NCBI GenBank assembly: GCA_013360195.1
Contig: JABWCQ010000008.1
Coordinates: forward strand, 1-64,000
Length of the DNA: 64,000 bases
From: a bacterium
GTDB taxonomy: Bacteria > Electryoneota > RPQS01
Direction of reading: 5' to 3'
This document shows, in pieces, positions 9,801 to 13,099 of the stretch. Below the pieces are notes generated by a model. It made no database searches and was not told the origin of the DNA. It was given only the letters and a program-made list of their open reading frames with translations. The position numbers were made by a program, and so were the translations under genes. Each line of letters opens with the position of its first letter. Within the stretch, counting starts at the first letter, position 1.

Positions 9801-10729
9801 CGCCGTTTGTGGACAACGGCACGATGCTCATTGTCAACGGTCTCGATTGGGCAACCTACGGCCAAGCCGTGTATGACTTATATGACCAGCGCGTACTGCA
9901 GGGAAATCGCGCCTTTCGCTTCTGGGATTTATTCGCGACAGGAACACGTCCTCCCGGTTACACACCCGTCGGCACGGGACTAAACGGACTCGTTGACCAG
10001 CTCTGGCAGGCGGGTACCGTCATCTGGGTTTTCAACGGATTTAACGGCGACGAGACCATCTTTCAAACGCTGCAGCCCAATCTTGAATCCTATCTCGACC
10101 TCGGCGGAAAGCTTGTGCTGATTGGCAAAGAGTTGAATCTCTACTTGACTCCTTCCATGCGCGCGCGTTTGGGCATCGAGAGCTTCGGCACTTCCCTTGA
10201 TTGGGCGGAGAATGATTCGTTGTGGGCGGAGCATCCCTCACTGGCAACCATTAGCAAACAAACCGGTGTCGCGATGTCGCTCTGTCCTGAATTTATTCCT
10301 CGCGACGCTCCCGAAGTTTATCCGCTCTATCGTATGGCCGGAACGGATGATTCTTACTACGGAGTCTTGAGTGCTGACAGTGCAGGTCAGCCCTATGACG
10401 CGCTCTACCTTTCGATGCGTCCCTATCGTGCAAACTATCCGGCTCTCGCCGCTGCGATGGACACCCTGCTGACGGATTTCCTCGGACAAACGCTCGATGA
10501 GTCCGTGCAAAGTGTGACCATTAACAATCCGCCCGGAACGAACAACAATGTCCTGCGCTGGAGCGCTTTGCCGGGTGTGACAGGCTACCGAATCGTTCGT
10601 CGGATTGGCGAAAATACTCCGCCCCATGCCGGGACGGTTATCGGCACAACAACCAACACGACTTTCACGGATTCTACAGTCCAACCCGCAGGCGTCGTCG
10701 TCCACTACTCAATCTACCCGGTCTGGTGA
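6845..10729 (+). CDS. Exported FG-GAP repeat protein with duplicated GATase1-like/Fn3 modules
   Basis: 1294 residues with signal peptide MMNLLRAMLCLSVSSALFA. Residues ~40-570 carry seven FG-GAP/integrin-alpha-type repeats with calcium-binding DxDxDG loops (DIDGDGRMD, DLDNDGIKD, DVDNDGNND, LNGDEYDD, DINGDGIQD, DLNGDGFFD, DFNGDGYWD), predicting a seven-bladed propeller. After an Fn3 domain come two homologous ~230-residue modules. They start LIVNGCRWATYGQE (about residue 663) and LIVNGLDWATYGQA (about 994), each with FWDLF and a GGKLVxIGKE strand resembling a class I glutamine amidotransferase-like fold without an obvious catalytic Cys. Each is followed by an Fn3 domain. There is no YPNPFN sorting domain. 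Likely a cell-surface adhesin or ligand-binding protein; the ligand is unknown. Confidence 0.85.
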   Translation: MMNLLRAMLCLSVSSALFATPVKFWWTGDRSQDGQMTMFNPSAEDGDTGIPVNAADIDGDGRMDAILSAITGDGRNNNRSSCGELHVLFGVDTIRGLVDFQYYDGVYENLFTIWGRAARDYLGSMHCAADLDNDGIKDLVLGAAWSDTPGRVNGGEVYLIWGGPHLRGLFSDVASASDMATLETTIIKGAEADDKLGIWVAAGDVDNDGNNDILLGAPRANGIDNDAAHDQTGECYLLYGPFARNDTIDLANPGDQRMTVIFGIDPNDQMGNTLQIGNLNGDEYDDMVIGAGAQVVARLGDTDVDYPFETGGAGDGPDNDRPAAGEAYILFGAPDLPDTINLAAGMPANSTIIWGAHGIENAGEVGGDELGEEITLADINGDGIQDVMIGAFRADGRYNDIFWAGANFLFYGRHNWPAEVDLLYGLPDSTTAIYGGGIDWLLGDSTPLGDLNGDGFFDMMFGCVHDAGPYGIFKAGTVRIILGGPNLLPPVVDFADMPDSIHVTVIQGAEVSDLLAYWATTGDFNGDGYWDVIPNVMHGDGPNNERNNAGDFHIISGEWITNHPGQPRFLAADPDVDRVDLRWHDNQELGTDAHIIYRRNYPAGTFDSVGFAPFPQLSFTDLTVTSGQTYEYRIVAVNPEGYRSNPSYPVLAAVGLAVNPNGLPLIVNGCRWATYGQELISFYENEVLLGADVPFEFWDLFTTNNYPNNVTPIGFDIDSLDEEIFEHPIVLWMLNAFDPDNPNNHDGHKFRAFGPVLSQYMQGGGKLVVIGKEMGDWVEDQFEASYYHTVNWGFQVQVTATNELTPLYPGLGNIGREGTTNIPNLEPFSIDDSGCPLLLYTYNNSDYQWMGAMSRPSVPDWYNLCYLSTRPYRADQAELRAFMSFMLENLMDHYPKIESVTASAPTPGVIEVNWSESVAENEVSYMLYRRLASGGNVDTLAVLAAPATSYLDTVESPLSSYHYWVVSQHADGRESLPSDTATGFSPPFVDNGTMLIVNGLDWATYGQAVYDLYDQRVLQGNRAFRFWDLFATGTRPPGYTPVGTGLNGLVDQLWQAGTVIWVFNGFNGDETIFQTLQPNLESYLDLGGKLVLIGKELNLYLTPSMRARLGIESFGTSLDWAENDSLWAEHPSLATISKQTGVAMSLCPEFIPRDAPEVYPLYRMAGTDDSYYGVLSADSAGQPYDALYLSMRPYRANYPALAAAMDTLLTDFLGQTLDESVQSVTINNPPGTNNNVLRWSALPGVTGYRIVRRIGENTPPHAGTVIGTTTNTTFTDSTVQPAGVVVHYSIYPVW

Positions 10730-10851
10730 GGATTTGGTCACAATTTTGCAAATCAAAGACTGTGTAATCCCCAGCGCAGTTGCAAACTGCTGCACTTGAA
10801 TTTTCTTCACTTAGCGGGTCAGGACAATTTCAAATATTTTGCACTAACCCC

Positions 10852-10880
10852 TTGACAAGGGGGGGGGGGTATGTTATTAT
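10852..10880 (+). promoter_or_regulatory. Near-consensus promoter with poly-G spacer
   Basis: TTGACA (10852-10857), exactly 17 bp, TATTAT (10875-10880). The spacer is occupied by an 11-base G run (10859-10869). Predicted transcription starts about 60 bp before the ATG of the Cys-rich gene at 10948. Any change in the G count changes the -35/-10 spacing, and with it the expected promoter strength. Confidence 0.75.
10859..10869. repeat. Poly-G homopolymer tract (11 G)
   Basis: Eleven consecutive G on the plus strand, entirely inside a promoter spacer. I noticed no other comparable G or C run in the window. Tracts of this kind slip during replication, and sequencing errors also concentrate there. 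Confidence 0.9.
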
Positions 10881-10947
10881 ATTGGTGGTGAAGCTCGGCT
10901 GCATACTGTTTGTGGCGGGGCACACCACTCAAGCCGGAGGTCGGATT

Positions 10948-11385
10948 ATGGGATGGAAATTCACTTTCGCAACTTCACTCGCCGTGCTTCTTCTCTTCGC
11001 GGCGCCAAGCAAATTGTTTGCACAGTGTACTTGGTGCACAACACTTGTAGAAGTCTGCTGCGATGCGGACACAAACGGCTCACAGATTGAGCTTCCGTGT
11101 AACACTACCGAGATTTGGGCCCACTTTGATCACTCCAGTCTGAATAGGATTTGGGTAGAAGTGAAGAATCTTGACACAGGCACGATAATAGCAACCTCGC
11201 TCTTGAATTGTGATTGTGATCGCAAGCAAGTCTGGAGTGGAGGGACTTTGTCGTCCGGAACAAATATTGGATTCAGAGCAAAGTGCTATCCTTGCAGCGG
11301 TTCTGATTGCGGACTTGGGAATGCACATGTAAAGTTCTTTTCGCCTTCGTCAAACACATGCGCACCAAATTGTTCTGGCAGCTGA
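10948..11385 (+). CDS. Small secreted Cys-rich protein (copy 1)
   Basis: 145 residues from the ATG at 10948, preceded by GGAGG at 10936. The frame is open further upstream, but that part crosses the promoter and is not plausible coding. The signal peptide ends ...APSKLFAQ. The mature part (~115 residues) has 12 Cys, starting QCTWCTTLVEVCC and ending NTCAPNCSGS, which suggests a disulphide-stabilised exported protein. It shares a layout with the gene at 26028: a beta stretch (VEVKNLDTGTIIATSLLNC here, VYLKDAGGNVLGAAHSSC there) followed by Cys pairs. Both genes lie directly upstream of a beta-helix gene, here by 4 bp, so they are probably co-transcribed. I do not recognise a family. Confidence 0.7.
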   Translation: MGWKFTFATSLAVLLLFAAPSKLFAQCTWCTTLVEVCCDADTNGSQIELPCNTTEIWAHFDHSSLNRIWVEVKNLDTGTIIATSLLNCDCDRKQVWSGGTLSSGTNIGFRAKCYPCSGSDCGLGNAHVKFFSPSSNTCAPNCSGS

Positions 11386-11389
11386 GACT

Positions 11390-13099
11390 ATGAAACGCGG
11401 CTTCTTATTCTTCTTGATAACTGCATGGGCCACATTGGCTCATGCTGTAATTCATTTTGTTCCCGACGATTTTATGAACCTGCAAGAGGCGTTGGACGAG
11501 AGTAGTTCAAACGACACTATAATCTGCCGAAACGGGACCTACTTTGGCCCGTTTTTCATTTGGGCGCGAAATGTCACAATTGCGAGCGAGTATATATTAG
11601 ATCCCGACCCCGGTCATATTACAAATTGTGTGATCAGACCGCAACACGGTGACAGAAATCATCGCTGCTTTCTGACACAGGAGGCAATTTCAACAAATAC
11701 TATGTTGAGACTCGTTGGTTTGACCATTGCATTGGGCCGCGCGGTAACAGAAGCTGAAAGTTCCGGCGGAGGCATCTATCTTCGTAATCGAACTGCGGAA
11801 ATCAGTCACTGCATTTTCAAGTCAAACGCCGCTTTGAAAGGGGGTGCTATTTATGCCGACTCATCAATTGTCCGGATACGCAGGACCTACTTTGAAGGCA
11901 ACTCAGCTGCCAGCCGTGGCGCAACATTCTATGTCAAGCGAAGCGAAATGTCACTTGATTCATGTGACATTGGGCCAAGCGCCGAGATTCTCCCAATCGA
12001 CGCCTATCTCGGAGAATTTCATCTTGACGCAGGAAATGTATCCCTTTGCAACTCGCTCATTCATGACATTGGCCAGACAGCACCGGGATCAAGAAACATT
12101 TTCTGGTGTTTTGAGAGCTTTTCATCGCGTCAGGTAAGGTTGAAAGGGTGTACAATTGAGAACTGCAACCTTCGAACTTTGGCCGAAGGAGCAAGTAATG
12201 TCAGTATTTTTGATCTGCGAATGGATTCGTGTCTGGTACGGAACAATGTGATCTGGTGGGGATTCTTCTTGCCATGGATGAATCCTCGAATGCAGTTTGC
12301 ATCGGTAACTCGAAACTGGTTTGAGAATAACTCTTACCAGCCCGGAACAGGTGGAAACGGCCTGCTCTTTTTTGATCAAGACAACCGCAATTTCCTGTGC
12401 GAAGAGAACTATTTTCTGAGGAACAACTTGTACTCGTACGCCTGCTTGGGTCTGCGTACTCTGAGCAACGCGTTGCTGGGTAGAGCCCAGAGGAACTACT
12501 TTGTCGAAAATACAAGTGATGGATATCCTTTTGATGCGGGAATTACAGTAATGCTTGATCGGGTCCAGGACAGTGTGTTTGAATACAATGCACTTATTGA
12601 AAATGAAGGCTACGGTGTCTTCAGCCTTGATTGGTTTTCCCCCACCTCCTACGCCCTTCATAACTTCTGGGGTGATTCTACCGGCCCATACGAAGTAACA
12701 CGCAACCCCGGCGGATTGGGTGACACAACGAATGCCGCGACGATCTATGACGAATGGCTGTTAAGCGAAGATGAAATTCCCGATACAAGTTTGTTTCCCC
12801 CGCCGAATGCTGCTGATGATCGTCGTTGGACCGTCCCAAGTACATGGTTCATCTCAAGCATCTATCCCAATCCTTTCAACAGCGGGTTTAGAATTGAATT
12901 GGACGGCATGACCGGAGCTGATTTTGAAGTTCGGTTGTATGATCTTTTGGGCCGCGAAGTTGCCCTTTTGCACTCGGGCAGAACCCTGCGCGGGGCGCTC
13001 AGTTTCTCTGCTCCCGCCAACCTCGCCGCCGGAATCTACTTCATCTCGGCCCACGACCGTTTCTATTCCGAAACCAGGAAGGTCCTGTACCTGAAATAA
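11390..13099 (+). CDS. Right-handed parallel beta-helix protein with T9SS sorting domain
   Basis: 569 residues; signal peptide MKRGFLFFLITAWATLAHA. The body opens with the typical beta-helix start (HFVPDDFMNLQEALDESSSN, then DTIICRNGTY) and continues as NosD/pectate-lyase-like coils (GGGIYLRNRTAEISHCIFKS, GGAIYADSS, ENYFLRNN). It ends the helix with NFWGDSTGPYEVTRNPGG. The last ~80 residues, from SSIYPNPFNSGFRIELDG to KVLYLK, are a Por/T9SS type A sorting domain, so the protein should cross the outer membrane and be anchored or released there. Such helices bind or cleave polysaccharides; no catalytic residues could be assigned. The start is 4 bp after the Cys-rich gene; no strong ribosome site is visible, suggesting translational coupling. 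Confidence 0.85.
   Translation: MKRGFLFFLITAWATLAHAVIHFVPDDFMNLQEALDESSSNDTIICRNGTYFGPFFIWARNVTIASEYILDPDPGHITNCVIRPQHGDRNHRCFLTQEAISTNTMLRLVGLTIALGRAVTEAESSGGGIYLRNRTAEISHCIFKSNAALKGGAIYADSSIVRIRRTYFEGNSAASRGATFYVKRSEMSLDSCDIGPSAEILPIDAYLGEFHLDAGNVSLCNSLIHDIGQTAPGSRNIFWCFESFSSRQVRLKGCTIENCNLRTLAEGASNVSIFDLRMDSCLVRNNVIWWGFFLPWMNPRMQFASVTRNWFENNSYQPGTGGNGLLFFDQDNRNFLCEENYFLRNNLYSYACLGLRTLSNALLGRAQRNYFVENTSDGYPFDAGITVMLDRVQDSVFEYNALIENEGYGVFSLDWFSPTSYALHNFWGDSTGPYEVTRNPGGLGDTTNAATIYDEWLLSEDEIPDTSLFPPPNAADDRRWTVPSTWFISSIYPNPFNSGFRIELDGMTGADFEVRLYDLLGREVALLHSGRTLRGALSFSAPANLAAGIYFISAHDRFYSETRKVLYLK

Follow-up and report, generated by a model that had tools for sequence, protein, structure and literature searches.

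A guanine tract between the promoter boxes of a secreted-protein operon

The window, a stretch of 64,000 nucleotides (C8:1-64000) of the draft genome G000 (3.23 Mb in 46 contigs), carries on its forward strand a two-gene operon behind a candidate promoter with a long guanine tract. The first gene (10948-11385) starts at an ATG preceded by the ribosome-binding site GGAGG (10936-10940) and encodes a small secreted Cys-rich protein of 145 amino acids, whose signal peptide was recognised by reading and whose family counts 12-13 members in the genome. No match to this protein was found in Pfam or NCBIfam, and a single-sequence structure prediction (seven strands, mean pLDDT 48) was of too poor a quality to be used. 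The second gene (11390-13099) encodes a right-handed beta-helix protein of 569 amino acids that ends in a T9SS type A C-terminal sorting domain, with Beta_helix and Por_Secre_tail / TIGR04183 matches above cut-off (PF13229, PF18962, TIGR04183; the last at 27.7 bits versus a cut-off of 23). The original prediction that the controlled unit consists of two exported proteins is borne out by the signal peptide on the first product and the beta-helix with its sorting domain on the second. Both products are presumably secreted, the second as a surface protein, and one might guess at a role in adhesion or polysaccharide contact.

The -35 hexamer TTGACA (10852-10857) fits a genome-wide TTGACA-N17-TATATT class. 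It is followed by a single A (10858), a homopolymer of eleven G's (GGGGGGGGGGG, 10859-10869) proposed to be a slippage tract, and the stretch TATGT (10870-10874), which joins the tract to a first candidate -10 hexamer, TATTAT (10875-10880), at a spacer of exactly 17 bp. A second candidate, TATATT (10878-10883), is the hexamer that the genome prefers, normally at a spacer of 17, and lies here at 20; the two overlapping boxes, 3 bp apart, are both contained in TATTATATT. With 11 of 12 positions agreeing with the E. coli consensus, TTGACA-17-TATTAT is the top promoter-like site in 10600-11450, so that the letters confirm both the near-consensus promoter and the 17-bp spacing with its eleven G's that had been read at this place. 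Farther upstream lies the block CTTAGCGGGTCA (10810-10821; L001 1459-1470), whose start is 42 bp from the -35 box and which is common to the window, to the copy C17b and to a copy at the end of contig C14. Because they have this block in common, the promoters of C8 and C17 are related by descent. A near-palindrome, CCCCTTGACAAGGGG (10848-10862), contains the -35 box, and the same shape is seen at a 16S rRNA promoter in genome G018; it is probably due to chance.

An open reading frame started by TTG (10780-11385) shares the frame of the Cys-rich protein and includes the tract, and slippage could in principle shift this frame and act as a translational switch. We regard this as barely credible: the signal peptide and GGAGG indicate that translation begins beyond the tract, at ATG 10948, and in the paralogs the tract is part of the promoter and of no conserved reading frame.

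Tracts of this length are rare. By a first-order Markov model, 64 kb would contain about 0.012 runs of G or C of length 11 or more; apart from this tract, the longest runs in the window, of G and of C alike, are of 6, as the claim that no comparable run occurs elsewhere in it requires. Genome-wide (3.23 Mb) there are 28 G or C runs of at least 8, four of them of at least 11. Four of the 28 fall within TTGACA promoter intervals, where about 0.02 would be expected with the interval length estimated as 90 sites of 29 bp and with paralogs counted that are not independent. Occurrences of TTGACCCCCC elsewhere in the genome proved not to be spacer tracts, those in C34 and C37 excepted.

Recurrence at sister operons and in relatives

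The gapped pattern TTGACA-G5+-TATTAT occurs at five places in the genome, and its reversed control at none. All five precede operons of the same build, in which the gene for a small secreted protein, mostly Cys-rich, comes ahead of one for a beta-helix protein that usually ends in a T9SS tail. The tracts differ in length: G11 in the window and in C3, G8 and G9 in two neighbouring copies on C17 (C17a and C17b), and G5 in C5. A search of the genome with a profile of the small protein gives 13 matches, including a fragment at a contig end, and adds members with upstream tracts of G6 (C17c) and G5 (the end of contig C9); the end of contig C14 also lists the same promoter string as that of C9. Altogether, spacer tracts of 8-11 G's stand before at least four such operons, and homopolymers of at least 8 thus lie between recognisable -35 and -10 boxes. 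Several divergent paralogs lack the tract and show TTGACA followed at a spacer of 17 by TATCTT or TAAATT.

Two further observations concern the small-protein genes. In C17b (L037 near 4700), the copy with G9, the small Cys-rich gene has a frameshift directly after its signal peptide. At C6:8800 (L041:5801), a G10 run precedes the gene of a further small Cys-rich secreted protein by about 100 bp; it adjoins the 5' side of a TTGACA box and is not inside it.

Among 40 related genomes searched, the same architecture is found as TTGACA-AATAC-G12-TAG-TATATT in G001, of the same genus, and as TTGACA-AATA-G12-TCAT-TATATT in G006, of the same family. Both promoters precede a small secreted protein and a beta-helix protein, and in G001 runs of at least 10 G's occur in two places only, one of which is this promoter. 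The small open reading frame of G001 stops right after the signal peptide and, as read from the sequence, may be broken. The tract is therefore kept in three genomes from two genera of one family, with differing lengths and neighbouring bases. The original prediction had looked for the tract before homologues in related genomes, where both relatives indeed carry G12, and had held that a tract absent from close relatives with the promoter kept would speak against it. For the architecture as a whole this is not what is seen; it does apply to some of the divergent paralogs, which are tract-less at a fixed spacer of 17, as are two in the same-genus genome (spacer 17 to TATGCT or TATTTT). The strict pattern is present in only 2 of 10 same-genus or same-family genomes searched, and this, together with the tract-less paralogs, counts against a switch.

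Homopolymers are error-prone in sequencing, and the 46-contig draft breaks within this very repeat family (the ends of C9, C14 and C25), so that the tract lengths might be products of sequencing or assembly. We consider this very improbable: homologous promoter positions carry tracts in the independently assembled G000, G001 (7 contigs) and G006, and a tract would be present whatever its exact length. In G002, another genome of the family, most long G runs stand in other contexts, which likewise counts against a switch; one of them, a run of 29 G's near TTGACAATGTTGA (G002:C7 ~51080, L272), is possibly a read artefact.

When one genome for each of 84,980 species was scanned with TTGACA-N1-6-G8-N1-10-TATATT, 118 stretches were found. 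Their spacing peaks at 17 (24 cases), which is what real promoters would give, and longer tracts spread to 18-24. Matches in G018 and G025 were rejected as members of the operon family; one is the promoter of a 16S rRNA (G6), and the other two are promoters with tracts of G6 and G8.

The preferred -10 box and the length that would be ON

Which of the two overlapping boxes serves as the -10 element? In the genome TTGACA-N13-23-TATWWT has 110 matches versus 13 for the reversed control, and among the 100 sites listed, 50 have TATATT at exactly 17 and few have it at other spacings. TATTAT at 17 occurs among these 100 only at the tract loci of C3 and C8, the C17b site being hidden by an overlapping shorter match. 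TTGACA-17-TATATT is also read in a 16S rRNA promoter of the same phylum, and the promoters set aside in G018 and G025 are all at the canonical 17 to TATATT and support the rule. The genome's preferred -10 is thus TATATT at a spacer of 17. The boxes are ones that the organism uses at a preferred spacing, and the peak at 17 suggests that their activity is sensitive to it. Several tract-less paralogs keep 17 as well, which, like the peak, speaks for the switch proposed below.

At the tract loci, TATATT stands at 20 in C8, C3, C17b, G001 and G006, at 19 in C17a and at 15 in C17c, and the C17 copies carry a second TATATT nearer the -35 box, at a spacing of 14-15. TATTAT stands at 17 in C8, C3 and C17b and is absent from this position in G001 and G006. 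If TATTAT is used, the assembled G11 is the ON length; if TATATT is used, the ON length would lie three G's lower, at G8, and the G11 of the assembly would be an OFF or weak state. Since the two relatives do not have TATTAT at 17, the reading with TATATT is favoured. The other is kept open because the repeated spacing of 20 is slightly more regular than free slippage would give: all five loci have it, a uniformity greater than predicted and a point against free slippage. The original prediction of a strength that depends on departures from 17 thus stands in its homopolymer-spacer design; its spacing of exactly 17 to TATTAT may not be the functional one, as the genome prefers TATATT, and the assembled G11 may be OFF or weak.

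MerR-type activators act on spacers of 19-20 bp by remodelling DNA. That TATATT stands at exactly 20 at five loci, which belong to three genomes, would suit a spacer of that length made functional by such a regulator, or by a structure of the G-tract itself (an A-form-like helix or a two-layer quadruplex). We hold this to be highly unlikely, since the tract fills the spacer and leaves no dyad for a MerR-type dimer, and since C17a has the box at 19 and C17c at 15.

Tract variation and a putative phase-variable promoter family

Tract lengths, as assembled, can be compared between paralogs, not strains. From the -35 box onward, C17a (G8) and C17b (G9) align over 141 columns with four mismatches, and the sole indel is in the tract. 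Similarly, a poly-C tract after TTGA, of 9 C's in C34 and 8 in C37, holds the sole indel in 249 columns. Its promoter, read as TTGACC..TACATT with a spacing of 18 and 17, precedes operons of a small secreted and a beta-helix protein (L039:2150, L040:2268); the call is weaker than for the G-tract promoters, as neither hexamer is perfect. In C34 a stop comes directly after the codon at which translation is expected to start (ATGTAA, versus ATGAAA in C37). No other indel separates these near-identical copies, so the tract changes faster than the flanking sequence.

Long G runs are also found within genes. Three adjacent FG-GAP T9SS genes on C6 (L042:6175, 8467, 10378) have coding tracts of G11, G9 and G10 at comparable positions, and as assembled only the G10 is in frame. 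A T9SS gene on C11 (L034:6519) has a G13 immediately ahead of the sorting domain; the assembled tract keeps the frame, and one G more or less would end the protein before that domain. Coding poly-G tracts are thus present in four T9SS genes, two of them out of frame. At least 150 T9SS sorting domains are encoded in the genome, perhaps an estimated 10-15% of its length, and about 7-8 of the 10 runs of at least 9 lie inside or directly before surface genes or operons of these kinds. Such runs are enriched there, with a binomial probability of about 1e-4 at an assumed share of 15%.

Homopolymers of such length slip, and sigma-70 promoters work best near 17 bp. We propose that the promoter is of sigma-70 type and phase-variable, that its variable element is the G11 tract, and that it belongs to a family of such promoters. 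Slipped-strand mispairing during replication would add or remove single G's, the distance from TTGACA to the -10 box would change with them, and transcription of the operon for the small secreted protein and the T9SS-exported beta-helix surface protein would be switched or graded; TATTATATT may allow both -10 boxes. We put the probability of this reading at about 0.77. The recurrence of tracts of varied length at sister operons and in relatives, and their standing as the only indel between near-identical copies, speak for the homopolymer-spacer switch of an exported-protein operon that had been predicted here. Slippage in living cells, its effect on transcription and the ON length we infer from the sequence.

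Could the promoter instead be fixed, with a G-rich spacer of ancestral origin, TATTAT at 17 as the real -10 and slow divergence between copies in place of switching within a population? The descent shown by the shared CTTAGCGGGTCA block and the recurrence of TATTAT at 17 in C8, C3 and C17b would agree with it. It is nevertheless unlikely: the tract changes faster than its flanks, 8-12 G's persist in two genera of one family though such homopolymers are mutable, G001 and G006 do without TATTAT at 17, and the frame-breaking tracts in T9SS genes suggest the same process.

The phase-variable promoter that we favour has known counterparts. In Neisseria meningitidis porA, a poly-G tract between the -35 and -10 boxes sets expression by its length (PMC3639595), a design that the window promoter shares, and single-G changes alter the level of the outer-membrane protein (PMC3639595; van der Ende 1995, as cited in PMC7864442). 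The original prediction had pointed to homopolymer-controlled surface genes in Neisseria. Both promoters have about 9-11 G's in the spacer, switching in the window being suggested by the sequence. porA is, however, a single porin locus. The present case comprises several T9SS surface operons of one family, in an uncultured environmental lineage, and its TTGACA/TATATT promoter has two overlapping -10 boxes set 3 bp from each other. In Treponema pallidum, tp0126, encoding an OmpW homologue, likewise has poly-G in the -35/-10 spacer and is transcribed best at a distance of 17 (PMC7864442); it is a single locus of another phylum and has no gene family in common. Contingency loci with poly-G in the coding frame, such as lgtG of Neisseria, resemble the FG-GAP trio on C6 and the T9SS gene on C11, and are another device than the window's tract, which is in a promoter.

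A comparable array lies in the complete genome of the betaproteobacterium UKL13-2 (CP012157.1 ~856-880 kb; L217, L153, L149), where nine near-identical promoters of the form TTGACAAGTAT-G9..16-(TTA)AC-TATATT stand mostly before short peptides with double-glycine leaders (MRELSVNEVGFVSGG..., bacteriocin-like). It is not mentioned in the genome paper (PMC5248499), and a Rhodocyclaceae MAG (L127) has the same promoter. By its sequence it looks like a phase-variable peptide array. It shares with the window's family the TTGACA-polyG-TATATT promoter repeated before a gene family with varied tract lengths, differs in sequence and in the genes downstream, and is probably of independent origin.

A wider reading, which we advance with considerable doubt, is that of a whole poly-G phasome for T9SS surface proteins, in which the double -10 of TATTATATT gives two productive lengths three G's apart. 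If so, an operon family with slipping promoter spacers would stand beside T9SS genes with slipping frames, and expression would be periodic instead of plainly on or off. This kind of switch is already known; what is new is its occurrence in this lineage, across several operons and in connection with T9SS surface proteins. The literature search gave no paper in which homopolymers, T9SS and phase variation are joined and, for the terms used, none about contingency loci of metagenomes; nor did we find a prior report of such a switch in this lineage. Poly-G promoter switching is known mainly in host-adapted pathogens, with immune evasion as the usual explanation. The design yields concrete ON and OFF predictions for tract lengths, and a multi-locus T9SS version in an uncultured lineage would suggest other pressures, such as phages, grazers or attachment.
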